Virus record (IMG/VR): IMGVR_UViG_3300045885_000307
Span: 1-40,037 of that record
Length of the DNA stretch: 40,037 nucleotides
Strand: one strand, 5' to 3'
DNA from: a virus
The first letter of the stretch is position 1. Each line of letters starts with the position of its first letter. A program made the position numbers and the translations under genes. This document shows, one piece after another, positions 4,630 to 40,037 of this stretch. Below the pieces are notes generated by a model. It had not been told where the DNA came from. It saw only the letters and a program-made list of their open reading frames with translations, and made no database searches.

Positions 4630-4870
4630 GACGTCGCTCTTTTTGTCTAGCATCGAAGCAAAGTACGCATTGCGATATCTGCTTATTGCGCGCTCTATCA
4701 CGTCGAAAACTATAAAGAGGCTTTTCTTCTTTACAGATCGTGCATTTCTTCATGCCGCTTGCTTGGGGAAATTCGCATGCAACACAAAGTTTTGACTTAG
4801 GCATAAATTGAGTGCAAAATTTCTCTATCTCGCATTGCTTGCATTTTATTTTCAGTAAGACAAATTCCAT
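4601..4870 (-). CDS. Two-zinc-finger protein, 89 aa
   Basis: Two Cys-rich halves: CKQC...CVAC (about residues 10-33) and CTICKEEK...CVLC (about 43-71), the second with the E/K-rich spacing and SQCVLCFDARQKERR ending often found in small phage zinc fingers and the metal knuckle of HNH proteins. No nuclease residues are present. It begins inside the 3' end of the RusA gene (74-base overlap), with an AGAGGA about 11 bases before the ATG. Probably a DNA-binding accessory factor of the replication and recombination block. Confidence 0.6.
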   Translation of the reverse strand: MEFVLLKIKCKQCEIEKFCTQFMPKSKLCVACEFPQASGMKKCTICKEEKPLYSFRRDRARNKQISQCVLCFDARQKERRLNLPRFYPV

Positions 4871-5315
4871 AATGGTTTAAATCCTCTGTTGTTAAAGCAA
4901 TATTTTTGGGAAATATTCTAATAACAGTTTGAGGCTCAGTATAATCAGGGTGTATGATCTTGATGCTGTATTTGATCACGACGGATGAATCCCGATCGAA
5001 GAATAGATCTTCCATGCAATCCATATAAAATTTCGAAAGATTATCGCTATCAGGCTTTTGTATGTGGAAACAAATATTTTCTTGATAAAATAATCGATCC
5101 TTTTTAGATAAACGACTAGGAGGCGGAAAAAAGAAGATGAAGCCAAGCTCAGAAACTTCTGGTTTCTGGTAATTTCTGGCGAAAGGCAAAAACATTTGCC
5201 GAACTACTCTTTTTTCGTTTTTACGTGGATCATAAGTTTGGGAGAAGCCCCTAGCAAACGTATGCCGGGGCCTTGCGTATGGGATGGAGGGTCCTGGAAG
5301 TACAATCTCTAAAAT
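4797..5315 (-). CDS. rusA: RusA-family Holliday junction resolvase, 172 aa, ATT start
   Basis: RusA enzymes are dimeric, metal-dependent junction nucleases. The signature KPDSDNLSKFYMD followed by FFDRDSSVV supplies the acidic cluster (D89, D91, D107/D109). The first ATG (5195) would remove 40 residues that carry the conserved family N-terminus, LEIVLPGPSIPYARPR. That segment is in frame and starts at an ATT codon (5315-5313) placed 6 bases after AGAGGA and overlapping the stop of the SSB-like gene, so I start here. It lies between SSB-like and zinc-finger genes in the replication operon, where it would process recombination or replication junctions before packaging. Confidence 0.85.
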   Translation of the reverse strand: MLEIVLPGPSIPYARPRHTFARGFSQTYDPRKNEKRVVRQMFLPFARNYQKPEVSELGFIFFFPPPSRLSKKDRLFYQENICFHIQKPDSDNLSKFYMDCMEDLFFDRDSSVVIKYSIKIIHPDYTEPQTVIRIFPKNIALTTEDLNHYGICLTENKMQAMRDREILHSIYA

Positions 5316-5653
5316 GGTACGTCCTCTTGCTGAGCGTCTTGTGTTTGTTTATTTTCTTGGGTAACTTGTTGGTAGTTATCCAAGTTTTTAAGTAATGCGT
5401 ATTCAAATTTGTCTTTACCACCAAAATGATTATAAGGGAAATATTTTTTTTCACCGTCCTTGTCATATGCTTCAGAGGGTAAAGAGATGAATTTCTTGCC
5501 GTATTTGTTTTTGTAAATCTTGATTTTGTTTATAGTGAAAACGTCTTCGATCCATTCGTTTTCGCTCGCCATATAGCGAATTTTCATTCGCATATTGACG
5601 GAACCTTGGAAGGATCCATCTTGTTTTGCTGGGTTGAATCTCAGAATTTCCAT
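5309..5653 (-). CDS. Probable ssDNA-binding-like protein, 114 aa
   Basis: Start chosen at Met with AAGGAG 5 bases upstream; the longer frame has no signal. The body is beta-rich (MRMKIRYM, DVFTINKIKIYKNKYGKKFI, SLPSEAYDKDGEKKYFPY). The last residues, after a polar Gln-rich linker, are acidic then aromatic (QQEDVPF), like the DDIPF tip by which bacterial SSBs bind partners. The core is also reminiscent of SpoVG-like folds. Its stop overlaps the start of rusA, supporting a recombination or replication role. ssDNA binding is inferred, not shown. Confidence 0.55.
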   Translation of the reverse strand: MEILRFNPAKQDGSFQGSVNMRMKIRYMASENEWIEDVFTINKIKIYKNKYGKKFISLPSEAYDKDGEKKYFPYNHFGGKDKFEYALLKNLDNYQQVTQENKQTQDAQQEDVPF

Positions 5654-5761
5654 GTCTACTCCTTGTGTTTTATGTATCAAAAATTTGGCCGTTTACTTCG
5701 CTTGTGGGGCGGCTTAAGTTAAAAACGTGTATTTTCTCATTGCAGGGGATGATCGCCTTTC

Positions 5762-6112
5762 CTATCCAAAATTAGAGGCATTCTTACTGCCTTCGAAATT
5801 GTTCGCATCAAAATTGAAAAGATTTTCTTTTGCCATTTGTGCATGTATTTCGTAAACCATTTTGGCCTCATCTCTGAATTTTTCGTGAGTTTGATTTAGA
5901 ATGACTGGATAACTGGAAGGCCCTATTTTCCATTTCATTGCAGGCTTAAAACCTATCCAAAAAATTATAGGCTCTCGATGGTAATTGCGACCTAAAAGCA
6001 TGCTGATATGATGCATGAAATCAGGAATCATCAATTTCGCAAGTACTTCTTTTTCATGTTTATCAATGTATTTTTGTGCTAAAAGAATGTTTTTTTCTTT
6101 ATCGTTATGCAC
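5762..6112 (-). CDS. Hypothetical protein, 116 aa
   Basis: Not recognised. Soluble, helical at both ends, with a central Trp/Pro-rich segment (REPIIFWIGFKPAMKWKIGPS). It overlaps the 3' end of the replication initiator gene by 8 bases, so it is translated from the same message and may assist replication initiation, for example as a loader-type partner, but no ATPase motif is visible. The 97 bases between it and the SSB-like gene contain no ATG ORF of note. Confidence 0.6.
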   Translation of the reverse strand: MHNDKEKNILLAQKYIDKHEKEVLAKLMIPDFMHHISMLLGRNYHREPIIFWIGFKPAMKWKIGPSSYPVILNQTHEKFRDEAKMVYEIHAQMAKENLFNFDANNFEGSKNASNFG

Positions 6113-7361
6113 AAATACCGAATCTTCTTAAAGTATTCTCTAACTGATCGTTAAAGCCTTTCTCGATGAATTTAACTGAGACATGGGTCATTCCTCGCTG
6201 AAAAGCAATCCCATAATCGTCGATGAAACATTCTGCTCCATTATAGAATTTTCCATTAGTAAATCTTTTAGATACAACATCTTTTAGACTTTCCTTTTGT
6301 TTTTTGTCAGGCGGCAACATTCTGCTCCAAAGGTCTTCAAATTTCTCTCTAAGCTTCTCTGTGCATCGTACATTTCGCCTCCAAAAATCATCATTTTCTA
6401 GCCAATCTAAAAGTTTAAGTATTTCTTCTTCAGATATTTCATCAATTTTTTGCATATCATTCACATGCTTACACCAGGTTTGCCAATTTGGCTCTTTCTT
6501 CTTGGGAAACAGCTTTTTAGCCATCACAAACATGCGTTTCGAAATCCTATATTCGAAAGAGTCCTCTGAATATTTAGTTTGATTTTTGTTTGATTTTTTT
6601 GTTTTTAATTCTTCTGATTGTTCGGAATGCGAATTTTTGTTTGCTTCGAGTATATTTTCAGAACCGTTATATAAATTATCAGACGTTAGCTCGGGTGAGG
6701 CGAAGCCGATTTCCGAGCTAACAATATATTTATCGTTAGATAAATATTCTTCTTTACTTCTTATATTATTATGGTGCACTTGGGCTTGCGGTTGGCTTGC
6801 GGTTAGCTTGCGGTTAAGTCGCGGTTGGTTTAGCGGTTGGCTTTGTTCTTCATTTATATCATAAATGCTTTTATCTGTTAATTTTATATATAGGAATCTT
6901 CCGGTTGACCTAGTGGTTAGGAATGAAAGAGCTTTGAGAAAATTCAAAATAGTCCTTACATTTTGTCTAGTGAGACTCCTTTCATGTGGTAGATCTTCGA
7001 ATTCGCAACAATTGAATTCGCATTCACAAAAATCTAAATGTTGATTGAATCGGGTTTCTTCCCTTTTTGCTCTAAGTGCGATAACTTGTAAAAGCCATGC
7101 AGCAAGAGGATATGTTAATGCTAATTCTAGAGCTTCGCGACTGAGTTTGATGAATCCGTTTTTCATATCGTCACCGTAATTTTTATGTTGTGTCAATATT
7201 ACGGATGCCGATATACTCGGAGATAACAAATCAGATCCGAGTGATGTTTCAGCATCCAAATGAAAGTGCCGAGTTAGCTGCTCGGCATTTTTGCTTTCTA
7301 CGCTACCATTATTTTCTTTATTTTGTGAAGTAGTTTCATCAAACATGATTATGTCGTTCAT
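6105..7361 (-). CDS. Replication initiator with internal iterons, 418 aa
   Basis: Built like lambda-O-type initiators: a polar N-terminal region (1-65), a helical/winged-helix-like DNA-binding region (about 66-165, KLSREALELALTYPLAAWLL to STGRFLYIKL), a low-complexity Gln/Asn/Ser linker (about 170-265), and a C-terminal helical region (about 268-370) with WQTWCKHVNDM and LLDWLENDDFWRRNV, a pattern common in phage replisome-organiser proteins. The linker DNA contains five 11-bp iterons and an AT-rich tract, i.e. a probable origin. The start overlaps the upstream stop as ATGA. No helicase motif; it must recruit a host helicase. Confidence 0.75.
   Translation of the reverse strand: MNDIIMFDETTSQNKENNGSVESKNAEQLTRHFHLDAETSLGSDLLSPSISASVILTQHKNYGDDMKNGFIKLSREALELALTYPLAAWLLQVIALRAKREETRFNQHLDFCECEFNCCEFEDLPHERSLTRQNVRTILNFLKALSFLTTRSTGRFLYIKLTDKSIYDINEEQSQPLNQPRLNRKLTASQPQAQVHHNNIRSKEEYLSNDKYIVSSEIGFASPELTSDNLYNGSENILEANKNSHSEQSEELKTKKSNKNQTKYSEDSFEYRISKRMFVMAKKLFPKKKEPNWQTWCKHVNDMQKIDEISEEEILKLLDWLENDDFWRRNVRCTEKLREKFEDLWSRMLPPDKKQKESLKDVVSKRFTNGKFYNGAECFIDDYGIAFQRGMTHVSVKFIEKGFNDQLENTLRRFGICA
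6685..6722. repeat. 10-bp inverted repeat beside the origin
   Basis: GTTAGCTCGG (6685-6694) and CCGAGCTAAC (6713-6722) are perfect complements around an 18-base loop that itself contains GGC-GAA-GCC. It abuts the AT-rich tract of the proposed origin and is translated in frame, recalling small palindromic elements that insert into coding sequence. Confidence 0.75.
6721..6840. other. Putative replication origin: AT-rich tract plus five iterons
   Basis: GCGGTT cores start at 6788, 6799, 6810, 6821 and 6833, i.e. spacing 11, 11, 11 and 12 bp, within units of the form CTTGCGGTTGG. This is one site per helical turn on the same DNA face. Next to them, 6721-6780 is strongly AT-rich (ATATATTTATCGTTAG..., TTATATTATTATG), a likely unwinding element. 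Iterons inside the initiator gene followed by AT-rich DNA is the known lambda and lambdoid arrangement. Confidence 0.75.
7215..7242. repeat. Inverted repeat ACTCGGA/TCCGAGT
   Basis: Perfect 7-bp arms at 7215-7221 and 7236-7242 with a 14-base loop, in the N-terminal coding part of the initiator. Shares the CTCGG/CCGAG core with the repeats at 6685 and 7267. Confidence 0.5.
7267..7287. repeat. Inverted repeat TGCCGAG/CTCGGCA
   Basis: Perfect 7-bp arms around TTAGCTG, followed on the plus strand by TTTTTG. It lies inside the initiator gene and repeats the TGCCGA core of the 741-811 element. Possible autoregulatory or replication-protein site; a plus-strand terminator is conceivable but no plus-strand gene precedes it nearby. 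Confidence 0.5.
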
Positions 7362-7654
7362 GCGTTACCTACTGAATGCAGCCAGCTTGATAAGCAAAAA
7401 TAATGTCCATAATCTTCATCAAAGTTATATCCTCTGACATGGACTTTTAAAAAATCCTCGAATTCCTCCTCGTGGGTTACGATGTAGCCAGATATCTCAA
7501 GAAACTTTATTTCTTCCTCGAAAAGGTTGAATATTTCAAATATTCCATCTTTATCGATGGCTCTGGTACATAAGATCACCCAAAGAGTAAAAACTTTCTC
7601 TGATTGATTTCTAAGGTGGTCTGCGCAATATTCACAAAGTAATATATTCGGCAT
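7358..7654 (-). CDS. Hypothetical winged-helix-like protein, 98 aa
   Basis: Begins MPNILLCEYCADHLRNQSEK and ends coupled to the initiator by ATGA. The middle pattern (AIDKDGIFEIFNLFEEEIKF followed by a strand-like IVTHEEEFEDF) resembles the helix-helix-wing order of small winged-helix proteins and echoes the next upstream gene. A CEYC pair is present near the N-terminus. Likely an accessory to replication initiation; family not identified. Confidence 0.55.
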   Translation of the reverse strand: MPNILLCEYCADHLRNQSEKVFTLWVILCTRAIDKDGIFEIFNLFEEEIKFLEISGYIVTHEEEFEDFLKVHVRGYNFDEDYGHYFCLSSWLHSVGNA

Positions 7655-7657
7655 GTA

Positions 7658-7915
7658 TCACTCGGGGGTAAGTTTAATGTGAATGACCTTCCCATCGTCG
7701 TGAAAATCTAATAGCGCAAAACAAGTTAGATCATCTAGTTCATCCAGAATCATTTTTCTGGTCCTTCCTAGATATTTAAGATCTTTGTAGGAATACTGTA
7801 CGTATCCTTCTTCGTCACAGTCTTTGCAGATGCTCATGTATAGACAATGAGCATGTGGATTGCTCTTAAGCAATTTCTCCAAATTTGAAAATTGAACAGA
7901 TAAAGTCATAGGCAA
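7658..7915 (-). CDS. Hypothetical winged-helix-like protein, 85 aa
   Basis: Helical N-terminus, then CDEEGYVQYSYKDLKYLGR, a helix (RKMILDELDDLTCFAL) and a strand pair (LLDFHDDGKVIHIKL): the order expected for a compact winged helix. It lies 3 bases before the 98-aa gene, which has a comparable layout, so the two may be distant paralogues. First gene of the tight run leading into the initiator. DNA binding is inferred. Confidence 0.5.
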   Translation of the reverse strand: MPMTLSVQFSNLEKLLKSNPHAHCLYMSICKDCDEEGYVQYSYKDLKYLGRTRKMILDELDDLTCFALLDFHDDGKVIHIKLTPE

Positions 7916-7997
7916 ATATCTTCTTGTAAAAAATGGGATCTTGAGTGAAAAATAGATGATACATAAGTATAAACATTTTATTGCTGAGTGTCTTATC

Positions 7998-8017
7998 GGG
8001 CGGCGTGTCTACCGCCC
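7998..8017. terminator. GC-rich stem-loop between 7915 and 8024
   Basis: GGGCGG (7998-8003), loop CGTGTCTA, CCGCCC (8012-8017). It separates the SpoVG-like gene from the 85-aa gene on the minus strand. No good U-run follows on the minus strand, so it may be an attenuator or RNA-stabilising hairpin rather than a full terminator. Confidence 0.4.
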
Positions 8018-8023
8018 TTTACC

Positions 8024-8371
8024 TTATCTACGTTCGAAACGAGATTTTGAACGTGCTTTTTGCATATCTTTTTTTGGATTACATGTCAATATTTCTGGTG
8101 AAAATAAATATTCATGCTTAAGCTTAAGCTCCTTCTTGATGGTGTCTTGAAGGCTATCTGATAGCTCCTTATTTTTCACATGAAAGAGATTAAAAGACTT
8201 GTTTTTGGTTAATGTCTTTGATGGCATTTTGATCCAAATGTCATTGAAATTGCCCGTGATTCTGACCTGGCAATTGATGTCGAATTTATCCTCATAGGAT
8301 ATGATAACATAGCCTAATAATTTATCATTCCCCTTCCTCTTTTTTAACTTAAATGATTCTAGTTTAAACAT
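8024..8371 (-). CDS. SpoVG-like protein, 115 aa
   Basis: The segment GNDKLLGYVIISYEDKFDIN, followed by a strand, WIKMPSKTL and a helix (DSLQDTIKKEL), follows the SpoVG plan: strand with conserved Gly-Tyr, variable loop, MPS-K motif and C-terminal helix. SpoVG proteins bind nucleic acids and act as regulators. The final ~25 residues are very basic (KKDMQKARSKSRFERR), supporting nucleic-acid binding. Divergent from the small membrane-protein gene at 8433. Confidence 0.5.
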   Translation of the reverse strand: MFKLESFKLKKRKGNDKLLGYVIISYEDKFDINCQVRITGNFNDIWIKMPSKTLTKNKSFNLFHVKNKELSDSLQDTIKKELKLKHEYLFSPEILTCNPKKDMQKARSKSRFERR

Positions 8372-8387
8372 ATATATGCGTCCTTGG

Positions 8388-8416
8388 TTGATATCTTGAG
8401 AAATTGCTAGTATGTG
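8388..8416 (+). promoter_or_regulatory. Possible promoter for the 39-aa membrane protein
   Basis: TTGATA (8388-8393), 17-base spacer, TATGTG (8411-8416). The -35 is good, the -10 weak. Confidence 0.3.
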
Positions 8417-8432
8417 AAAAAAAGGAAATTAA

Positions 8433-8552
8433 ATGAAAGAAGTATGGAACGAAATTTTAGCAGGACTAGGAAATCCAAGAAGATTGGTTCCCCTATCATT
8501 AATCATCGTTTTTTTTATGATGCTCGTGGGTCTAATATGGGCCCTGATTTAG
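8433..8552 (+). CDS. Small membrane protein, 39 aa
   Basis: MKEVWNEILAGLGNPRRLVP followed by a ~19-residue hydrophobic helix (LSLIIVFFMMLVGLIWALI) ending at the C-terminus. An AAGGA site sits 6 bases before the ATG. The charge pattern (acidic N-terminus, RR before the helix) predicts a single-span inner-membrane protein. This frame is a better coding candidate than the longer overlapping frame from 8414, which lacks a ribosome site and has a random-looking composition. Could be holin-like or an anti-superinfection peptide; unknown. Confidence 0.55.
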   Translation: MKEVWNEILAGLGNPRRLVPLSLIIVFFMMLVGLIWALI

Positions 8553-8570
8553 ATCCAGAGCCCTCAAAGA

Positions 8571-8810
8571 TTATTGAGACTTTTTTGATGCTTTTGCTTT
8601 CTGCTTCTTTTTTATTGATTTCTCATCAATGAACATATCGCGACATTTCACCTTTCCCTCTGTTGCATCTTCAATCTCTACAGCAAGTTTGAGAGAAGGA
8701 TTTCTCTTTTCTGATGCAAAATCCAAAATGGTTCGATAGACAAACCCATGTTCTTCAGAAAACATTTTCATATTCACAGAATATTTCTTAAAATACTCAG
8801 ACAATTTCAT
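8571..8810 (-). CDS. Cro/CI-like HTH repressor, 79 aa
   Basis: Start at MKLSEYFKKY, where GGAG lies 6 bases upstream. Residues ~3-60 fit a lambda-Cro/XRE HTH: helix (LSEYFKKYSVN), helix (MKMFSEEHG), recognition helix (YRTILDFASEKRN) and PSLKLAVEIEDATEGKV, the usual follow-on helix. The Lys-rich tail (KKKQKAKASKKSQ) is extra. Faces the early operon across a spacer with palindromic operators overlapping the early promoter, so it probably controls the lysis/persistence switch. No cleavable LexA-type domain. Confidence 0.75.
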   Translation of the reverse strand: MKLSEYFKKYSVNMKMFSEEHGFVYRTILDFASEKRNPSLKLAVEIEDATEGKVKCRDMFIDEKSIKKKQKAKASKKSQ

Positions 8811-11426: not shown

Positions 11427-12044
11427 ATGAATACTTGCCCTATATGTATGAAGCCTAGTGGATTTAGTAAAAAAAATAAAGAAAAAATCTTTTGCTCTTA
11501 TAAATGTTCCGGACAAAGCAAAAAAAAGGGAATATTATCTTTATGTACTTGTGGTAAAGAAATATATGTTCGTCCTTCACAACCAGAAAAAAAATTTTGT
11601 TCTCTTAAATGCATGGCAAGCACGTTAAAAACTGGATCTAAGAAAAAAAATGGCAAATACATTCCATGTTCAAAATGTGGTAAGGAAAGGTATTTTCCTT
11701 TGTGTCTAATTCATAATACAAAAAAAGGAAAAAAATATTGCTCAATTGAATGTAAAAAATCATCAATGAAAGAAGGTGAAGCAGGTTATGGATTTAAGAA
11801 AATCCCTAAAAAAACAAATTACAAAAAATATTATCCCTATAGAATAAAGACGGTTAAAGGTGTTCGCATGAAGGAGCATAGATGGGTAATGGAACAATAT
11901 CTAAAACGAAAACTAGAGTCTCATGAGTTTATTCATCATATTAATGGAGACACACGTGACAACCGGATTGAAAATTTAATGATTGTTGATAATAGCGCTC
12001 ATGGAAAAATTGAATTTCAGTCAAACGATCGTTTATATTCTTAA
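11427..12044 (+). CDS. HNH homing-type endonuclease with three zinc motifs, 205 aa
   Basis: The ATG at 11427 follows AGAGG; upstream in-frame sequence is the shadow of minus-strand genes. Three CxxC/CxxxC-like modules (C4/C7-C23/C27; C40/C42-C58/C62; C81/C84-C105/C109) precede an HNH domain: EHRWVMEQYL (H151), FIHHINGDTRDNRIENL (H170, H171, N173, D175, N179, N183), the HNH_3 pattern of free-standing phage endonucleases. Poorer in GC than its neighbours, convergent to the fibre gene, and the two stop codons share TTAA. Probably a mobile intruder that cuts genomes lacking it. Confidence 0.85.
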   Translation: MNTCPICMKPSGFSKKNKEKIFCSYKCSGQSKKKGILSLCTCGKEIYVRPSQPEKKFCSLKCMASTLKTGSKKKNGKYIPCSKCGKERYFPLCLIHNTKKGKKYCSIECKKSSMKEGEAGYGFKKIPKKTNYKKYYPYRIKTVKGVRMKEHRWVMEQYLKRKLESHEFIHHINGDTRDNRIENLMIVDNSAHGKIEFQSNDRLYS

Positions 12045-13576
12045 GTGTATTCAATTACAATAATTCTACCTGCGCCACCATCTCCACCGCGTCCAGAGTC
12101 AAAGCTTCCGGTAATACCACCGCCGCCTCCTCCACCACCGCCTCCAGGAATAGCACCATTGCCACCCCTGCCGGCATTCTGCGTTCTTGCTCCGCCACCG
12201 CCACCGCCACCAGATCCGCCCGATGGTGCACCATATGTTGTTGAGAATGAATTTCCATCTCCTCCGTTTCCTCCGTCGGCTGTGCCTGCTGATCCACCTG
12301 CATTGACGATATTACTGGTTGTTGAATTGTCAGTAATATTCCCTCCACCTCCACCAGCTCTTGCTGTTCCGGTATCGCCACCACCTCCTCCGCCACCAGT
12401 AGAGGCTTTTAAGCCGTCTGTTAGAGTGTGATTCAGTGCTGTTGCTCCTGTTGTCAGAGTTCCATTTCCTCCTCCAGAGGCTGCAGCAGTATATGATGCT
12501 GTAATATTAAATATATTAATGTCTCCCCTAGCTCCGGCTGGTCCTGAGGCATTTGTTCCACCTGATCCATTAACTCCGGCAATGGCTGTAATACTTCCAA
12601 ACGTTGAATTACCCGATCCTGTTCCAGGGTTTCCGTTAGTGTTATTTGTTGTTTGAGCGGCACCGCCTGTCCCCCCCGCTCCCACTGTAAAACTAACAGA
12701 TGAAGGAAACGAGGATGCAGGGCCTTTAGTGTAGGCAAATCCGCCACCACCTCCAGCACCACCACCAGATGAAGCTGCAGTAGTTCCCTTACGACCAGAA
12801 CCACCTCCGCCTCCACCTGCCCACATATAAACTTCAACACATTTAGTACTAGCATTGCGTGTCCAAGTTCCTGGGCTATCAGCAACATTATAGGTAGTTG
12901 ATATTACTGCTCCGGCAGGGGCTGCGCTAGTCCAGTTCGTACCATTTGATGTAAGCACATTTCCACTAGTTCCAGCAGTCGAAGGATAGGTTGCTGTGCT
13001 ATATGCAGGGTCTGCGGAAGCTCCTCCAGATTGAAGGACTTGACCTGCTGTGCCTGCTGCTAATTGTGTGATTGCTGAAGTTGTTGCCCCGACTAACACA
13101 CCATGATTCGTTAACGTCGTTCTTCCTGTTCCACCATGTGCAACATCTATCGTAGTACCATTCCATGTTCCTGTGGCTACCGTTCCAAGTGTTGTTATAG
13201 ATGTTTGACCAACATAGGTATTAGCAATATCGATAACGGGAGTTGTTCCACCTGTTGAAGTTATTCTATCTGTCGTTCCACTGACACTTTGTACAGCCGT
13301 TCCTGCTTGAGAATCTACATAAGATTTGTTGGCTGCATCATTAGCATTTGTGGGATCTCCAGCAAGCTCTAGAGTTCCTGTCATTGTTCCGCCAGAACGA
13401 AAAAGAAGATCGGAAATCTGACTTCCGGAATCGGCCAATATTAAACCTGTGTTATCTGCAAAAACAGCTATATCATTTACACCTGAACTAGCCGGACCTT
13501 GGACATAGCCACCACTTGGGCCACCATCGCTAGCGAAATCGAACTGATGTGTTAAAGGGTTGTATTTTAAAGGAAT
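12041..13576 (-). CDS. Tail fibre with Gly-rich tip, 511 aa, ATT start
   Basis: N-terminus I/M-PLKYNPLTHQFDFAS parallels MPFKFNPITHEFNIAS of the gene at 15507-16046, and in this gene it can only begin at ATT (13576-13574), 5 bases after AGGGGG; the next possible start, TTG at 13438, would delete this shared anchor. Residues ~60-230 are Ser/Thr/Gly fibre sequence (GGTMTGTLEL, AHGGTGRTTL). The C-terminal ~270 residues are full of polyglycine blocks ending GGAGRIIVIEYT, resembling phage adhesin tips built from polyglycine helices. Probable receptor-binding fibre; converges with the HNH gene. Confidence 0.8.
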   Translation of the reverse strand: MPLKYNPLTHQFDFASDGGPSGGYVQGPASSGVNDIAVFADNTGLILADSGSQISDLLFRSGGTMTGTLELAGDPTNANDAANKSYVDSQAGTAVQSVSGTTDRITSTGGTTPVIDIANTYVGQTSITTLGTVATGTWNGTTIDVAHGGTGRTTLTNHGVLVGATTSAITQLAAGTAGQVLQSGGASADPAYSTATYPSTAGTSGNVLTSNGTNWTSAAPAGAVISTTYNVADSPGTWTRNASTKCVEVYMWAGGGGGGSGRKGTTAASSGGGAGGGGGFAYTKGPASSFPSSVSFTVGAGGTGGAAQTTNNTNGNPGTGSGNSTFGSITAIAGVNGSGGTNASGPAGARGDINIFNITASYTAAASGGGNGTLTTGATALNHTLTDGLKASTGGGGGGGDTGTARAGGGGGNITDNSTTSNIVNAGGSAGTADGGNGGDGNSFSTTYGAPSGGSGGGGGGGARTQNAGRGGNGAIPGGGGGGGGGGITGSFDSGRGGDGGAGRIIVIEYT

Positions 13577-13588
13577 AATTACCCCCTA

Positions 13589-15499
13589 TTATCTCGGAGT
13601 GGTTAGGGTTTGACTACAATACATAAGATCAACTGCAACACTTGCTGAAGCAATTGTTCCTGCGGAACGAAATATATTAAAAATAGGCGCTATAGTTGCA
13701 GTTGGTATATTTGTATTTAGAGGACTATTATCAATTTCGACATCGTCTATATAATAACTAACAGATGTTGCATCAGCATTCACCACTATTTTGAAATTAT
13801 GCCAATCGGTATCAGCAGCTACTGAGCTATTGGCAGACGATCTTACTGAACTAGAAGCTGTTTTTCCCACCCAATTTCCAGAATTTACGTTGTCTGAATA
13901 CTGAAAATAACATCCATTAGCTTGATCTGCGGCAGTTGTAGCTGTATCACCTAACCCAAAGCTTAAAACATATCTATTTGTTCCATCTGATAAATTAACT
14001 ATTCTAATAACCCAATTAATCGTTATCTCTCCACCGCCTAAAACTAATGTTCTTACTACTCCTAAAGTAGTGCTTAATGTGATGGCATTAGGATTTGAAT
14101 TCCCTGTTGTAATGGTCCCATTTGTAATAATTCCTGGATGTCCGGCTTCGAGTAAAGCGCTACTAGTTACCATATTATTTTGATTATTAAACCAGCCCAT
14201 TTCTCCTACAAAGAGCGGACCAGGAGATGAACTAATAGAAAGAAATAAGGGAAAATCATCCTTCATTTGAAACACAGAATTAGGAGTAAAGCCCCCACCT
14301 GATCCAGATGCGTTGATAGTTAATGCGCCTCCAAGTGCAATCGTTGCAGGAGATGCTACGTTAAACGTTACATTTGTTCCGGCTGTGAAGGTGATAGAGT
14401 CGTTATCAAGAGCATCATTTGGTACTGTACCAAAGGATGGAACTCCCCCATTTCCTAAAAGGACTGTGTTAGCTGCGCCTTGAGCTGTTATTCCTACTGC
14501 TGAAGTTCCATTGCCATAAAGGACGCCATTAGTCGTAAGTGTCGTTTGGCCTGTGCCTCCGCCTGCTACGACTGCTGTCCCGAAAGCTGGGTCTGAAGCT
14601 GCACCTTGAGAGATTAGAGGAACGCCAGATGTTGCCGAAGGAGGTACTTTAGTTATTGTCGTTGTTCCGGCGCCTACTAAAACATTATGGTTTGTAAGAC
14701 CTGTTAATTGTGTAGTAAGGGTGCTTCCTGCTCCGGCTGTAGTAATACTTCCAGAACCTAATAGATTCCAGTTTCCGGCCGTTGGGCTAAGAGCTCCTCC
14801 GCTATCACCAGTGATCGTCTGACCAGCTCCTGTAGCATTTAGAGTAACGTTTCCAGCCACAACAGTAAAATCACCTGAATCAAATGAGGCTATGCCTTTA
14901 TTAACAGCAGAAGCATCTTCCCCGGCAATAGTTAGCGTTGTGCCGGCCCCTGAAGTGTCAATCCCCTCTCCACCTACAACCGAGAATGTATTTACAGCTG
15001 GTGTGACTGTACCTGAATCTGTACCGATAGAGGTTGGTATTGTTGGTTGTTCTGTGACATCGAAATTAAATGTCACTGTTGATCCCGCAGCTGTAGTATC
15101 AATACCATTTGAACCACCGATCAGATTGATATTATTTGCCGCAGGAGTAGCAGAACCAGCATCAGCAGTAAATGTCGTCGGTACCGCTGCACCAGCTGAA
15201 ATTGTAGGATTACCAGCTACCCCATCTCCATTCAAAATAGTAACACCAGAGCCAGCAGTTATAGTTCTTGTAGCCCATGTGCTCACTCCAGTTCTTGCAG
15301 CCATCCCAGTCGTAGCTAGTCCCTCTAAAGCAGCTAAATCATCAGCTAAAGCTAATGTAGGATTACCAGAAACGCCATTTCCATTGGATATTGTAATTCC
15401 AGCTGCTGGTGGAGTTATTGTTCTCCCTTCAAACGTACCAGCTCCATCATAAGCAACCATTCCTGCATCTGTTAGATTGACCGAATTATTTGTTGGCAT
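13589..15499 (-). CDS. Tail fibre with C-terminal lectin-like domain, 636 aa
   Basis: Long Thr/Ser/Gly/Ala-rich repeat shaft ([44 protein letters not shown]) typical of trimeric phage fibres, then from about residue 400 a compact domain ([47 protein letters not shown]) that fits a LamG/concanavalin-like jelly roll, a sugar-binding module. ATG after ATAGGT. Together with neighbouring fibre genes it probably makes the receptor-recognition apparatus. Confidence 0.75.
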
Positions 15500-15506
15500 C
15501 TAAAAC

Positions 15507-16046
15507 CTATACTATTGTTATATTTCCAATACTTCCTATAGGAGCGTTCCATTCGGTATTAGCGACGGAACAAATAAGTGTTATGCTATCCCCAATAAAG
15601 GTAGATTCGACATATCCACTTACACCTGTCGTTGATACTTGATTTCCTAGGCGTATATTTTGACCAGCACCTTGTGTAATTCTCCAACCATTTGAATTAA
15701 TGGCAGAAACAACGAAGGTATCTCCTATTACAGAAGTATTAGGAAGTTGAACTTCAACTCTACTACCACCATTGGTAAAATAACCTTCTTGTGTTATTGC
15801 CATTTGATTAGCAACAATCACAGACCACGTTAAAAAGGGGAAAACGGATCCGATCGTTAAGGTATTTGTTCCGGCATTTCCTGTTACGGTTATTGGACCC
15901 GAGCCAATAATATTAATATTATCTACACCATCCGGTCCGACCGGTCCGCCAATATCCCCTGTCAAAGTCGCAATGAATCCAGATCCCCCACCAGTAGTAG
16001 ACGCAATATTAAATTCGTGAGTGATCGGATTGAATTTAAAGGGCAT
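15507..16046 (-). CDS. Short fibre protein with shared N-terminal anchor, 179 aa
   Basis: AAGGAG precedes the ATG. MPFKFNPITHEFNIAS is the same type of N-terminal anchor as in the 12041-13576 fibre, followed by a Gly-rich spacer (GDIGGPVGPDG) and a beta-rich C-terminal domain (TWSVIVANQMAITQEGYFTN, GWRITQGAGQNI) of the kind found at the end of many phage fibres. Likely attaches to the same baseplate or hub site as its neighbours; may act as an adaptor or alternative fibre. Confidence 0.65.
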   Translation of the reverse strand: MPFKFNPITHEFNIASTTGGGSGFIATLTGDIGGPVGPDGVDNINIIGSGPITVTGNAGTNTLTIGSVFPFLTWSVIVANQMAITQEGYFTNGGSRVEVQLPNTSVIGDTFVVSAINSNGWRITQGAGQNIRLGNQVSTTGVSGYVESTFIGDSITLICSVANTEWNAPIGSIGNITIV

Positions 16047-28161: not shown

Positions 28162-29589
28162 TTAGTTGCCAAATGAGCCTTGATTAAATCCTGTTTGAAG
28201 TGTAGGACCAGAGAATATCGTCGGCGTTCTTGTCGCTGTAAATTGTCTCTGGCTACGCTTCCAAACAAGCATTTCTTGTTCTTTGAATAAGGGTTCATAA
28301 AAATTAAATTGTTCCATATCTCCCGTATCTGCAAGGATCTTGCGAGCAGCACCACGGGCAATGTATTCACACATATAACCGAATGTTACGGCAGCAGCAG
28401 ATGAAAGATAAGCAGCAGGTGTTAGATAAGCATCCAATTCAACGACATAAGGTTTATCTGGTGGAGACCTTAAAACCAGCGTATTATTGTAATACAGGAT
28501 TGATCTTGGTAATCCAGACTGGAAGAAATAACATTGTGCGGTGATATTGGCTCCATCTGGTACAACTCCCGGAAATATAAGATTGGATACCTCTCCAGTT
28601 AGATAATTGATCATATTTCGTGTGCTAGAGGCAGTTCCTCCCGCTGAATAAGCAGTAAAACCGGTAGAATCGACATCTATCGTAACCGTGGTTGCTCCTA
28701 CTGCGACAACAGTAAAGAACCTATCATTTAACTCTGTCATTCCCACAACGTCGGTAATAAGGATTTGTTCACCCACTAAGAATGAAGAAGTACATGTCAA
28801 AACGCATTGAGTAGCTTGGGTAGCACCTGTTATTGCAAAGGAGAGTAAGTATTCTGATAAGGGAGTATTTCCATTAGGAGCATTTCCTGGCTGCATTAAT
28901 AGGCCAAGATTAATGTTACTCTCGAGAAACTGGCCGCTATCTTGTACTGTGATGTTAGACCCATCAAAAGAAGTTGCTGTGATGAAAACTTGGGAATTTA
29001 CACTTGTAACTGGAACATCTTCGATAAATGTATCACTTGCAGTGATCTCAGCAACTGATACTTGAGGAGGATCCTCATTTTGTCCTGTTGCTACAACCCC
29101 TGTAATATCAATATGTCCTCTTAAGATGCTTTGTATTGGAGGATTTAAAGGCGTTGAATTTGTTCCTGATAGAATAGGAATCTGAAGATTATAAGGTCCA
29201 GAGGTTCCATTACCCTGACCTAATATAAGAGGATTCTGAATCACATTAGGATAAAGGTTATAGAAGCTATTTCTTTCAGTAATAAACGGGACTTGCACGC
29301 CATTCACATAGGCAGGACCCATAAAACCCTGATAAACAGGGTAAAATGAAATATTTTGGCTTCCAGATTCAACTTGAATATCATAAAGGGGCATATTGTA
29401 TTTATCTACCCCAGGGGTTGTTAGGAACTGGTACTTAGTCTTAAGATCAAACAACTGAATCCTTGCGTCAACATCCATGATCCAGAATCTATTCACATAA
29501 TCGATCAATAGATCATCAGTTATTTGAGAATTCGAAGGACTTTTGATGATCCTTCGAATATACGTTAAAATGTCTTGTAATAGGTTCAT
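28162..29589 (-). CDS. Head-tail connector/adaptor-type protein, 475 aa
   Basis: N-terminal 60 residues (LLQDILTYIRRIIKSPSNSQ, DDLLIDYVNRFWIMDVDARI) follow the helical pattern of short-tail adaptor proteins that dock under the portal. The C-terminal part (LYYNNTLVLRSPPDKPYVVE, GYMCEYIARGAARKILADTG) is also typical of this phage protein group. A 66-residue module (28630-28827) is inserted centrally. AGGAG before the ATG. Probably the tail tube or adaptor ring. Confidence 0.6.
   Translation of the reverse strand: MNLLQDILTYIRRIIKSPSNSQITDDLLIDYVNRFWIMDVDARIQLFDLKTKYQFLTTPGVDKYNMPLYDIQVESGSQNISFYPVYQGFMGPAYVNGVQVPFITERNSFYNLYPNVIQNPLILGQGNGTSGPYNLQIPILSGTNSTPLNPPIQSILRGHIDITGVVATGQNEDPPQVSVAEITASDTFIEDVPVTSVNSQVFITATSFDGSNITVQDSGQFLESNINLGLLMQPGNAPNGNTPLSEYLLSFAITGATQATQCVLTCTSSFLVGEQILITDVVGMTELNDRFFTVVAVGATTVTIDVDSTGFTAYSAGGTASSTRNMINYLTGEVSNLIFPGVVPDGANITAQCYFFQSGLPRSILYYNNTLVLRSPPDKPYVVELDAYLTPAAYLSSAAAVTFGYMCEYIARGAARKILADTGDMEQFNFYEPLFKEQEMLVWKRSQRQFTATRTPTIFSGPTLQTGFNQGSFGN
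28630..28827 (-). repeat. 66-residue shuffled module, copy B
   Basis: Encodes GATQATQCVLTCTSSFLVGE ... VVGMTELN ... IDVDSTGFTAYSAGGTA inside the connector protein. Clearly homologous to copies A and C at protein level; DNA similarity is partial, so the copies are not recent. Confidence 0.85.
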
Positions 29590-30872: not shown

Positions 30873-32006
30873 TTATGGAATAGACATATCGTGAAGATAA
30901 GCTCTCCAGTAAATCACATCGTTGGCATCTCCAACTAAAACGCCACTTGTTACAGTGGTTCCTACACCAGCTCCAATTACGAAACCTTGGCTTGTATTAT
31001 TCACAAATGCGCCTAATACAGCAGGTCCGTTAATGGTGCTTACATAGCTTGCGCTTGTAGATCCGCTTGGGAAAGTGTAAGGAGAAGGATAAAGAGGCAG
31101 GTTGGTGCCTGTTTGTCTTCCGCCAGTATTTACATCGCCAACAGCAATCATTTGCGGGAACGAAGTTCCGGACAAATCACTGACTTCAACGTTATTTGTA
31201 AATGCTGTGTAGTTAGTTGAATTGATGCTTACAACAACAGTATTATAATCCGTTACAGAAACAACATATCCATAGACTGGGGATCCTGGAGTTGTTGAAT
31301 TTGGTAAGGAATTAAGTTCGACTGTGCTGTAATCCGCAGGTATTCTGAATGCAACTTCTTGACCAACAACTAAGTTATGAGCTGTAGTTGTGTCAATAGT
31401 TGTTGTTGTGCCAGTTGTGATAGCACTAATAACAGAAACGCCTGGGAAATAAAGATATGGATACAATACTTTCTTTACAAAAGCCCCGCTTGGAGAACCA
31501 GCCAAAGCAGTATAATTACTTTGGTTAGTATTCCATGGGATTGAAAATGTGTTAGCATTTATTCTTGTAACAGTAAATGGGATACCGTCTATCTGAGGCA
31601 TACCGGTTGTGGCGGATTGATAGAGTCCTGTGAAGACAACTACATCGCCTGTTTGGTAACCGTGGCCTGTGACTTCAACAACAGCTGGGTCAGCTTTGGT
31701 AAGACTAACTACTTGCTGTCTAGCTCCATATTGGAGAGCTTGGCCAGCAGTAAAGGTACTAATACCATTAGTTGTAACTGTATCATATACTAAAGCAGAA
31801 GCTGCTGTATAAGCTTCAACTACAGCAAAGCCTTGTCCCATATTTGCATCCCATTTTGCTGAAAGAACTTGGCTAGCAGCAGCACCAGCATTTGCGTTTG
31901 TATAGTTTACAAACTCAACATAATCTGGAACGAAAGGGAGGTTAATAACTTGGGCAAAACCTGTAGAGGTAAATTTACCCTTTGCCATTCTCGAATATTC
32001 AGTCAT
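30873..32006 (-). CDS. Abundant-type structural protein next to capsid, 377 aa
   Basis: Start preceded by GGGGG. N-terminal ~90 residues (MAKGKFTSTGFAQVINLPFV, PDYVEFVNYTNANAG) then repeated beta modules: AVVEVTGHGYQTGDVVVFTG (about 110-180) and TTIDTTTAHNLVVGQEVAFR (about 205-290), the FCCH-like pattern in phage virion proteins, and an Ala/Gly-rich C-terminus. Follows the major capsid gene by 1 base, so likely a head decoration or major structural partner. Confidence 0.65.
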   Translation of the reverse strand: MTEYSRMAKGKFTSTGFAQVINLPFVPDYVEFVNYTNANAGAAASQVLSAKWDANMGQGFAVVEAYTAASALVYDTVTTNGISTFTAGQALQYGARQQVVSLTKADPAVVEVTGHGYQTGDVVVFTGLYQSATTGMPQIDGIPFTVTRINANTFSIPWNTNQSNYTALAGSPSGAFVKKVLYPYLYFPGVSVISAITTGTTTTIDTTTAHNLVVGQEVAFRIPADYSTVELNSLPNSTTPGSPVYGYVVSVTDYNTVVVSINSTNYTAFTNNVEVSDLSGTSFPQMIAVGDVNTGGRQTGTNLPLYPSPYTFPSGSTSASYVSTINGPAVLGAFVNNTSQGFVIGAGVGTTVTSGVLVGDANDVIYWRAYLHDMSIP

Positions 32007-32007
32007 A

Positions 32008-32976
32008 TTATACCCCCAATACGTTTAAACGTGTGCAAAGAAGGTTTCTAATGGCTGTATCTTGAGTGATGGCTTGCGCTTGGGCAAACTTAACAGCAAG
32101 AGTAGCATTCTGAGCTAGCATACCAGAGTAGTATGGATCACGATAAATTAGGTTCATCGAGTAACCATCTTGGTCGATATGCGTAATAGCTTGTTTACCT
32201 AATACAGTATTGTAGTAAACATCGGCACCAAGGTCAGAAGCAAGTCTAGCGACTGGAGCTTCGGAGCTTGTTAAGATCCTGATGTTGAATACAGAACCAT
32301 ATTCAGCAGGTAAAGCAGAAGTATTTGTAGGATAGTTCCACTGAGAGATAAATCCTGTTGTTGTCATTCCGTCAAAGTCGGATTGCAACTCTGTTGAGCT
32401 CAACATAAAGTAAGCTGAACGGACAGGACCAGTACCGAATCTATCCATCCCCTCGATACCGCTCATAAACTTATAAGCATTATTAGTATCAAGAGTAGTA
32501 GCAACCAAGCTAAAGTCAGTAGAGGCAAGGTTTGCTGGATTATCACCATTGCTACCGCCTCCAGCCATGATCTGGCTAGCAGCAGAAACGATGTAATCTC
32601 TTAAGATTAAATCTTCTGCTTGACGCATCGCAACAGCTAAACGCTCAGAAACCCAAGCGAGTACGCCTTCTTGGTCTTGCAAAATAACTTGTTCGTTGAT
32701 GATACAGCCAGTTCCGAAGAATGCCATCTGAGCATCAATGATATCTCTTTGCGGCACTTGTGCGGGAGGATCTATCCCGGCGTTACCCAACTGTACAGTT
32801 GGTGGTGTTAATGCGCGTGGGCGCATAAAACGGCATGTGGTACCTCCATGCGTGGGCATGGAAATTTTATCACAAACCGTGATGTAATTCATTGTGGGAG
32901 TAGGGACATAGAGCATAGCAGGCGCTAAACTCTGCAAAATCATTGGCCCCAAATTACCCGTAGTCGTAATTGACAT
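32008..32976 (-). CDS. Major capsid protein, N4-gp56 family, 322 aa
   Basis: HK97-fold capsid subunit of the N4-gp56 family. Recognised by the overall pattern: N-terminal ITTTGNLGPMILQSLAPAML, GGTTCRFMRPRALTPPTVQL, the helical spine (QEGVLAWVSERLAVAMRQAE, DLILRDYIVSAASQI), and the C-terminal MNLIYRDPYYSGMLAQNATL AVKF strand region. AAGG ribosome site 5 bases upstream. Follows the scaffold gene after a 174-bp leader that may carry its own promoter, fitting high expression. Confidence 0.85.
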   Translation of the reverse strand: MSITTTGNLGPMILQSLAPAMLYVPTPTMNYITVCDKISMPTHGGTTCRFMRPRALTPPTVQLGNAGIDPPAQVPQRDIIDAQMAFFGTGCIINEQVILQDQEGVLAWVSERLAVAMRQAEDLILRDYIVSAASQIMAGGGSNGDNPANLASTDFSLVATTLDTNNAYKFMSGIEGMDRFGTGPVRSAYFMLSSTELQSDFDGMTTTGFISQWNYPTNTSALPAEYGSVFNIRILTSSEAPVARLASDLGADVYYNTVLGKQAITHIDQDGYSMNLIYRDPYYSGMLAQNATLAVKFAQAQAITQDTAIRNLLCTRLNVLGV

Positions 32977-35064: not shown

Positions 35065-37167
35065 CTATTGATTTATAGCCATTTCAGGGCCTTGTTGCCC
35101 CATTATACTTTGTAAAAACTGATTTGACAATGCTGTGTTTTTAGCATCTATTTTTTCTCTATCTTCATTTTGTTCTTGTCGATAGTCGAAGGATTCGATT
35201 TGATTCATCTTAAGCATTGTTTCGACTTCACCATATTTCGCAATGACGTCGACCATCTTTTCGAGTGCTTCCATCTTCGCTTTTGTTGCCATTGCTCTAT
35301 TTTGCGTAATTTCAGATAGCCGTTCTTCAAATAAACCAATATCTGCTTCTGCTCGCCCATGTCTTTCACGAGCAGTCGCAAGGTTGGCTGCTGCCCTAGA
35401 CATAAGCTCTTTTAGTTTGGCTTCCTCAAATGCATGTTGAATATTCTGAGCTTCACCTTGTACCGCTGCTGCTTGTTGTTCTTGTTGTTGCAGGAATTGA
35501 ACGATCTCCCCTTTACCAGTGATATTAAGCTTGGGAATGATCATAGATGGGGGGAATACTTCTCTTCCGAATGTTTGGTTCATCTCAAGCATCTGTTGGG
35601 CCTGTAGGTTTTGCTGGGAAGGTGTAAGGTCGGCCTCTTCTACTATTGTTTTATACTTAGCAAATACTTTGCTGTAGAAGAATGGAGTAGGTTCCTCTCC
35701 TATAATCATGCCAACCTTTTCGGCATTCCAGTTATTTAAGACTGTTTTAAGAAGACGATCACCTAAAAGCTTATCTGCATAATCCCACTGATCGAAGTAC
35801 TTTTGGAACGTCATCAAATTAGCTGCCTGTTTTAGCATAGCCGTAAGCGTGCTTATTTGCTTGTCTTGCTGTCCTGCCCAGTTTTCTAAATCGATGCCTG
35901 CTACACGGAATATCAGATTCGCCATCTGATCAGCTAATGCAAGATCACTTTCGGGAATACCCGAAGGAATGATCTTTTCGCAATCTGTCATCTCATACCC
36001 TTCGTTGATGATGACGTCCCAGCCTTGCCCGCTTTTCTTGAGATTATCTTCATTGGCAACAGCGCCAGACTTTCGTTTCCATCCGGCATTTATAGTGGCT
36101 GCTGTAATATCGTTATTTGTTATAACCTTCCAGTTAAACAAGAATTGCGGATCTCGCATAGTCCTTACTAAGGATCTGACTCTTAAGTCGTAGTAGTTGA
36201 TGTGGGGCTCATAGTTCCAATAGTAAGGAATGAAGGGACACTCATCAAAGCCGAGTGGGTTTTCGCCTTGATACATAAGCTGATCGTTGAGTACTACAGC
36301 TAGTTTCCAAGTTTGAGCATCAACAGTAACTTGCTCTAAATCAGGAATGCCTTGAAGAATTCCATCTATTTGCTCGTTATTATTTGCAAAGTCAAAAAAT
36401 TGCTTTCTTGATCTGCTATATAGACGCTTTTTCTTTCTCTTCCACTTATACCAAACATAGCTTAATACCATTAAATCATTGCGAGCCATATTGTAGTTTT
36501 CGGGAAGGAAATAGAAAGAACCATATCTTTGAGGTGATCCAGCCATTGGTCTGATCTGCTCTAGTTTATCTGGAAATCTAGCTTCAGCTTCATGCTTACT
36601 TATGTATTCTTGACACCAAACAAACTGAGCATCAGACATATCAGGATTACGGAAGTAAGGATCGACTAGGAATGAATTATATTCCCAAATCTTGACTTTT
36701 AGCTCACCTTGGGCTGCATCTTCAGAATAATCCAAATAAGGCTGTGCAAGAACCATGCCAGAAACAGCGGCTAATTCTTTAGCCTTAGACTTTTGCTCAT
36801 GGATACCATTAATGTTAGCCTCATGGATCATTAGCTTAGTATATTGGTCAGTTGTTTGAGGATCAGAACCTTCCGTTGGCTGATAGATAAATTGCTTTCT
36901 TCGCTGTCTTTCATAACCAGTGATCATATTCACGGGCTGCTGTATGATATTGAAATAATAGGAGTTATAAGAGACATTCGGAGAAAAATTAAAATAGCGA
37001 TTAACGAAAGTCTGAGATCCGGCATAAAACAACGAATCAATGTTAGATTGATTCCATCTCGATTGTTCAATCGGTTGGAATTTACTATAAAGATTATCTA
37101 ACCATTGTCTTACATTGCCTTGATTTGGCTCTAAAGCATTGTTCCAGGTGGGGTAATAGAAACTAAT
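35065..37167 (-). CDS. Portal protein, P22-like, 700 aa, ATT start
   Basis: Forms the dodecameric DNA gate at the capsid vertex. Family sequence: FNFSPNVSYNSYYFNIIQQP then VNMITGYERQRRKQFIYQPT, central FDECPFIPYYWNYEPHINYY and VRSLVRTMRDPQFLFNWKVI, and a Gln/Glu-rich C-terminal barrel (about 560-700). The first standard start (TTG at 37032) would cut off family-like NNALEPNQGNVRQWLDNLYS and FQPIEQSRWNQSNIDSL. In frame upstream the only codon correctly placed is ATT (37167-37165), 7 bases after GAGGAGG, just after a stop. Confidence 0.88.
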   Translation of the reverse strand: MSFYYPTWNNALEPNQGNVRQWLDNLYSKFQPIEQSRWNQSNIDSLFYAGSQTFVNRYFNFSPNVSYNSYYFNIIQQPVNMITGYERQRRKQFIYQPTEGSDPQTTDQYTKLMIHEANINGIHEQKSKAKELAAVSGMVLAQPYLDYSEDAAQGELKVKIWEYNSFLVDPYFRNPDMSDAQFVWCQEYISKHEAEARFPDKLEQIRPMAGSPQRYGSFYFLPENYNMARNDLMVLSYVWYKWKRKKKRLYSRSRKQFFDFANNNEQIDGILQGIPDLEQVTVDAQTWKLAVVLNDQLMYQGENPLGFDECPFIPYYWNYEPHINYYDLRVRSLVRTMRDPQFLFNWKVITNNDITAATINAGWKRKSGAVANEDNLKKSGQGWDVIINEGYEMTDCEKIIPSGIPESDLALADQMANLIFRVAGIDLENWAGQQDKQISTLTAMLKQAANLMTFQKYFDQWDYADKLLGDRLLKTVLNNWNAEKVGMIIGEEPTPFFYSKVFAKYKTIVEEADLTPSQQNLQAQQMLEMNQTFGREVFPPSMIIPKLNITGKGEIVQFLQQQEQQAAAVQGEAQNIQHAFEEAKLKELMSRAAANLATARERHGRAEADIGLFEERLSEITQNRAMATKAKMEALEKMVDVIAKYGEVETMLKMNQIESFDYRQEQNEDREKIDAKNTALSNQFLQSIMGQQGPEMAINQ

Positions 37168-37226
37168 GACTAGTCCTCCTCTAAAATCCTGACCTTATAA
37201 TCTTAACATAATTTATTCAAGCTTAG

Positions 37227-39910: not shown

Positions 39911-40037
39911 AAAAAAAACGACACTGCTGGCAAAGCTACGGTGTGCCGCAATCACGCCTAGGTAACTAAAGTTACTGCCACTAGGATTTTTGTCTAGACA
40001 TGCCCATGTCCAGTTTATCGGAGGATCTCTCAGGGCT
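39911..40037. repeat. Terminal direct repeat, right copy
   Basis: Exact copy of bases 1-127. It shows that the stretch after 39632 and the stretch before 193 are one continuous intergenic region of roughly 470 bp. Confidence 0.95.

Follow-up and report, generated by a model that had tools for sequence, protein, structure and literature searches.

Near-cognate start codons are known in bacteria from a handful of cellular genes. In E. coli, infC and pcnB start with AUU codons that limit their expression (cited in PMC9845219 and PMC13009471). In S. aureus, cvfC1 and ccpN start with AUU and AUA, respectively, behind extended Shine-Dalgarno sequences (SDs), and their output was roughly 10% of that of AUG (PMC13009471). 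The Streptomyces gene sigR has a GTC start and is repressed by IF3 (PMC5472188). We investigated AUU starts in a phage DNA of 40,037 nucleotides (IMG/VR record IMGVR_UViG_3300045885_000307), the whole of which is referred to as the window. An earlier note on this DNA had counted three AUU starts in the 40-kb genome, and this count was borne out; they belong to a fibre gene (position 13576), the portal gene (37167) and a RusA-like gene (5315), and the ATT codons of the portal and RusA genes recurred in other assemblies (L004, L005). At a single phage gene, that of the portal, near-cognate starts, ACG included, were found in most members of a clade.

With infC, pcnB and cvfC1 the portal gene shares a start codon that is one base off AUG and is neither GUG nor UUG, a strong SD, and a non-AUG state that is kept in relatives. 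As in infC and pcnB, an AUU start is predicted to limit the expression of one gene; however, these are single cellular genes, whereas the portal gene is a phage structural gene in which AUU, AUC, ACG and UUG exchange across a clade. cvfC1 (AUU) and ccpN (AUA) likewise combine a near-cognate codon with an unusually strong SD and are conserved in relatives, but their output was measured, and the accessible part of that report describes no tree-wide trade-off between codon and SD (PMC13009471). The likeness to sigR lies in a non-canonical start that serves translational control, as that of the portal would; sigR is a stress regulator in a cultured host, and its dependence on IF3 was shown (PMC5472188). 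Nothing relevant on non-AUG starts of phage or portal genes was found in a literature search of partial coverage, and none were found reported for the portal family PF16510 in the literature searched. Attenuating non-canonical starts as such are already known; what would be new is a portal gene in which, throughout a clade, near-cognate codons replace one another and are offset by the strength of the SD.

The portal protein of the window (700 aa; positions 35065 to 37167, minus strand) belongs to the P22-like portal proteins by its profile score (PF16510 P22_portal, 180.6 bits against a curated cut-off of 26.1, residues 69-592; PHROG 156), and no cultured phage was found to match it above ~26% identity. 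Its AUU start codon (37165 to 37167, minus strand) lies 7 nt behind the SD AGGAGG (37175 to 37180, minus strand; -12.0 kcal/mol) in the context TTTTAGAGGAGGACTAGTC-ATT-AGTTTCTATTACCCC, which was identical in L004 and L005; ATT was also present in the diverged L006. The N-terminal peptide predicted from this start is SFYYPTWNNALEPNQ..., with the Met either removed or retained. Gene callers restricted to ATG, GTG and TTG would shorten the portal proteins of the clade by ~45 conserved residues; in the window, the start would be moved to TTG 37032 with a loss of 45 conserved residues.

Four IMG/VR scans with portal queries, together with other fetched loci, yielded 130 non-redundant loci. The start column was set by the conserved N-terminus S-F-Y-Y-P-P-W-N-N and the SD was not used. 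The 97 distinct contexts fixed in this way started with ATT (28), TTG (24), ATG (14), ACG (14), ATC (13) and GTG (4); i.e. 83/97 had a non-AUG start and 55/97 had AUU, AUC or ACG, while CUG, AUA, AAG and AGG did not occur (0/97). The start was located 7 codons ahead of a conserved W in 94/97 contexts, and with a strict, unselected anchor 85/88 starts fell into the same codon set, the three exceptions having a shifted start. In 42 of the 55 near-cognate portals, the stretch from the upstream in-frame stop to the start codon contained no ATG, GTG or TTG, and in most of the others the sole canonical codon was the TTG within the SD (TTGGAGG). Codons 2-24 were periodic, with differences of 0.23/0.12/0.53 by codon position, and the stretch 60-24 nt upstream showed no coding periodicity (0.67 throughout), indicating that translation starts at this codon. 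Residue 2 was S, A, T or G in 94/97, a choice that would fit removal of the initiator Met. On the portal tree, comprising 94 sequences, the start codon had changed at least 50 times. The same start was also recovered from separate assemblies (ATT in L004, L005 and the window; ATT in L009, L010 and L011; ATC in L024, L025 and L027). We take the AUU to be a genuine but weak start codon.

The strength of the SD varied with the start codon. Computed with the canonical anti-SD tail, which was assumed and may not be that of the host, the mean anti-SD energy at the portal was -9.0 kcal/mol for ATT/ATC/ACG, -7.3 for TTG/GTG and -5.3 for ATG (Mann-Whitney p 2.6e-7); the SD spacing of near-cognate portals was typically 4-5 nt. 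PGLS gave a difference in SD energy of -3.6 to -4.0 kcal/mol, with p<1e-7 at lambda values of 0, 0.5 and 1. When phylogenetically independent pairs of non-AUG and AUG portals were compared, the SD of the non-AUG member was stronger in 6.1/9 and weaker in 0.0/9, the sign tests reaching p 0.03-0.04 only. The same direction was seen in close pairs, such as L038 (ATT, -11.8) versus L016 (ATG, -4.9) and L029 (ATC, -7.1) versus L012 (ATG, -3.7). SD strength compensates for codon strength at the portal, and this survives correction for relatedness. The clade constitutes a natural series of start-codon/SD combinations in which it can be tested how initiation strength is set.

The reading that we prefer, with a probability of about 0.7, is that the portal is under stabilising selection for low translation initiation, reached either with a near-cognate codon and a strong SD or with AUG and a weak SD. 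A strong SD would hold the 30S subunit at the portal start long enough for a weak codon; fMet-tRNA would pair imperfectly with AUU, AUC or ACG, the rate of decoding would be reduced and few initiation complexes would proceed to elongation. The same low rate might be reached by a near-cognate codon, or the milder UUG, with a strong SD, or by AUG with a weak SD, and portal output would stay far below that of the capsid protein from the same gene cluster. The portal forms one dodecamer, i.e. ~12 copies per virion. The weak start codon probably keeps the portal protein scarce, which offers a hypothesis for the low portal copy number in phages. Deliberate low-level initiation, which the earlier note had suggested for the AUU starts, has gained strong comparative support at the portal from the 83/97 non-AUG starts, the 55/97 AUU, AUC or ACG starts and the compensation by the SD, but not at the fibre gene. 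We lean slightly towards the wider proposal that, across this clade of tailed phages, weak start codons set the stoichiometry of the portal, the unique vertex protein; AUU, AUC, ACG and UUG would be exchangeable and balanced against the SD, as an evolved translational rheostat that might also operate at the tail/neck gene g29589.

Neighbouring genes were used as controls. The major capsid protein (MCP; 32008 to 32976, minus strand; PHROG 1357) had kept its ATG in 31/31 intact N-termini, and the gene g32006 (30873 to 32006, minus strand) in 60/61, here with strong SDs (mean -10.3). The SD at the ATG of the MCP (-5.5) was no stronger than those of AUG portals; as the MCP must be abundant, SD and start codon alone do not set the protein level. 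Relatives of the terminase large subunit gene (38636 in the window) had also kept ATG, with the SD nearly absent (mean -1.7 kcal/mol). This could be a second route to weak initiation; initiation seems weak at the two genes of the packaging motor, owing to the SD at the terminase and to the codon at the portal. The tail/neck gene g29589 (28162 to 29589, minus strand) starts with ATG in the window, and near-cognate starts were recurrent among its relatives (ATG 33, ATC 5, TTG 5, ATT 2, GTG 2, ATA 1). AUC, AUU or AUA was present in 8/48, with SDs stronger than those of the AUG versions, a portal-like trait in weaker form. The predicted structure of the g29589 protein of the window was of medium confidence (pLDDT 73), and its Foldseek matches mainly concerned an inserted FCCH-like domain. 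A column-based survey of 950 gene-family members of 31 genomes gave no further family in which non-canonical starts were systematic, but it chose internal Met columns for some families, the portal included; since start columns had been misplaced in this way, the base rate rests on hand-checked families. A genome-wide homology search upstream of the first canonical start was set aside, as local alignments ran into non-coding DNA.

Because the MCP and g32006 keep ATG, the near-cognate starts appear to belong mainly to one gene and not to host ribosomes in general. A host with generally relaxed start-codon selection, in which AUU would be equivalent to AUG for this phage, might explain three AUU starts in one genome and the near-cognate starts of g29589, and a host accepting AUU widely had been among the suggestions of the earlier note; with ATG kept in the MCP, in g32006 and in nearly every other conserved gene, and with no second family of this kind among the 950 members surveyed, the suggestion gained no support and we regard such a host as very doubtful. 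Relaxed constraint on the portal itself is unlikely, though less so. Here, the portal would need little initiation and its codon would drift among those near-cognates that a strong SD can rescue; strong SDs could then be needed merely for the rescue of drifted codons. The share of AUG (14%) is indeed close to an even share among acceptable codons, and the many codon changes on the tree are in keeping with drift, but the lack of CUG, AUA, AAG and AGG is not, and g32006 has equally strong SDs and yet retains ATG. Codon drift alone also does not predict weak SDs at AUG portals, whereas a low set point of initiation predicts the trade-off between codon and SD. A near-cognate start might also act as a sensor, depending on IF3 level or growth state and timing portal synthesis in the manner of infC autoregulation or sigR. 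IF3-linked non-canonical starts are known from the AUU starts of infC and pcnB (cited in PMC9845219 and PMC13009471) and from the GTC start of sigR (PMC5472188). At the portal, however, AUG and UUG alternate with AUU and ACG in close relatives, which would lose such control, and no regulator was identified near the gene; we therefore consider a sensor rather improbable.

The fibre gene encodes a glycine-rich protein of 511 aa counted from AUU (12041 to 13576, minus strand), recognised by PF21722 and a weak PHROG tail fibre match. On the minus strand its start region reads TAA TAG GGG GTA ATT(13579) ATT(13576) CCT TTA AAA TAC AAC CCT. The frame opens at 13585, right behind an in-frame TAG at 13588, and the first ATG, GTG or TTG is TTG 13438, which lies 49 codons from the opening of the frame and 46 past the ATT. 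The SD AGGGGG (13582 to 13587, minus strand; duplex energy -10.7 kcal/mol) precedes the AUU codon at 13574 to 13576 (minus strand) by 5 nt. A gene nearby (15507 to 16046, minus strand), with a normal ATG start behind AAGGAG (-9.2 kcal/mol), is an N-terminal paralogue. As the earlier note had claimed for this pair, the homology begins exactly at the ATT codon: fibre I/M-PLKYNPLTHQFDFASDGGPSGGYV and paralogue MPFKFNPITHEFNIASTTGGGSGFI align from residue 1 of both proteins, with 11/25 residues identical and 18/25 similar (pairwise E 8e-9). In a regex scan of the loci examined, this N-terminal block occurred as a plausible gene start only in the fibre gene and the 16046 gene; a wider search revealed an independent viral contig (L254/L255) carrying MPFKFNPITGNLDLVNNQGGDVFGPASS, with ATG at the codon equivalent to the fibre ATT. 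The second ATT (13576) is a better start than the first (13579), since its distance from the SD is 5 nt and it falls on the M of the paralogue in the alignment, while the first is only 2 nt away. Given the match from residue 1 and the ATG-started relative, the fibre protein most likely begins at ATT 13576, with a predicted N-terminal peptide of PLKYNPLTHQFDFAS... Readthrough from the upstream gene was ruled out by the tandem stops TAA TAG and by the SD between the stops and the start.

Unlike that of the portal, the non-AUG start of the fibre gene was not kept in relatives. As both the paralogue and L254 carry ATG at the same codon, the fibre AUU is an isolated, sporadic case and is less certain than the portal start. 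A search at the level of the fibre gave two partial matches without the N-terminus, 50 related records yielded nothing convincing, and the viral contigs searched did not contain the fibre start a second time. The ATT is covered by one assembly only, i.e. the window, so a base error is possible there, and an ATG misread as ATT during sequencing or assembly would also fit the ATG of the paralogue and of L254. A G-to-T mistake exactly on a start codon is, however, improbable, and the portal and RusA ATT codons of the same genome were confirmed in other assemblies; such an error is therefore most improbable.

The third AUU codon (5313 to 5315, minus strand) starts a RusA-like Holliday junction resolvase (4797 to 5315, minus strand; PF05866, 44.1 bits against a curated cut-off of 22.8) in the context CAAGAGGACGTACC-ATT-TTAGAGATT, and it overlaps the stop of the upstream gene. 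The region was identical in L005, and RusA relatives have ATG near this position. The RusA start is a single, less certain instance and might represent sporadic use of a permissive codon/SD combination in one genome. The upstream gene (5309-5680) ends with QEDVPF, resembling the acidic tail of single-stranded DNA-binding proteins; PHROG and Pfam profile searches gave no family match for it. L005, from another assembly, runs across the two ends of the window, which overlap by 127 bases (1-127 / 39911-40037), indicating a circular or terminally redundant molecule, and the window represents a phage genome that is complete or nearly so. A search for the host by portal alignment to genome contigs returned just three uncertain MAG contigs, and the integrase, as a hint to the host, matched only a generic XerD (~37%). 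Phage tRNAs as a cause of the non-AUG starts were absent from the window and merely scattered in relatives. Most relatives had zero or one tRNA gene, often tRNA-Asn(gtt); in L244 (record G028), ten phage tRNA genes lay clustered at 5076-8645, and L245 had two more.

In relatives, the capsid and portal genes were found interrupted by inserts; none of these was present in the window. The capsid gene was affected in 38/68 relatives (L010, L078, L097, L016, L065, L079 and others), with 60 insertions in all, some genes holding several, and the portal gene was affected in 9/128 (among them L022, L051, L039, L070, L167, L148 and L161). An Rfam search gave no intron match for one insert under permissive settings and none at the gathering threshold for five loci. 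The aligned inserts were ~205-250 nt long and shared the core CTGATTGACTYGGA ... GAACGACTGAGTGAGAGG ... GCGACAGTCTGAAC ... GTAACAG, and their 5' part was able to form a pairing with the 5' exon that resembles P1 of a group I intron. The inserts have the appearance of group I-like introns of very small size.
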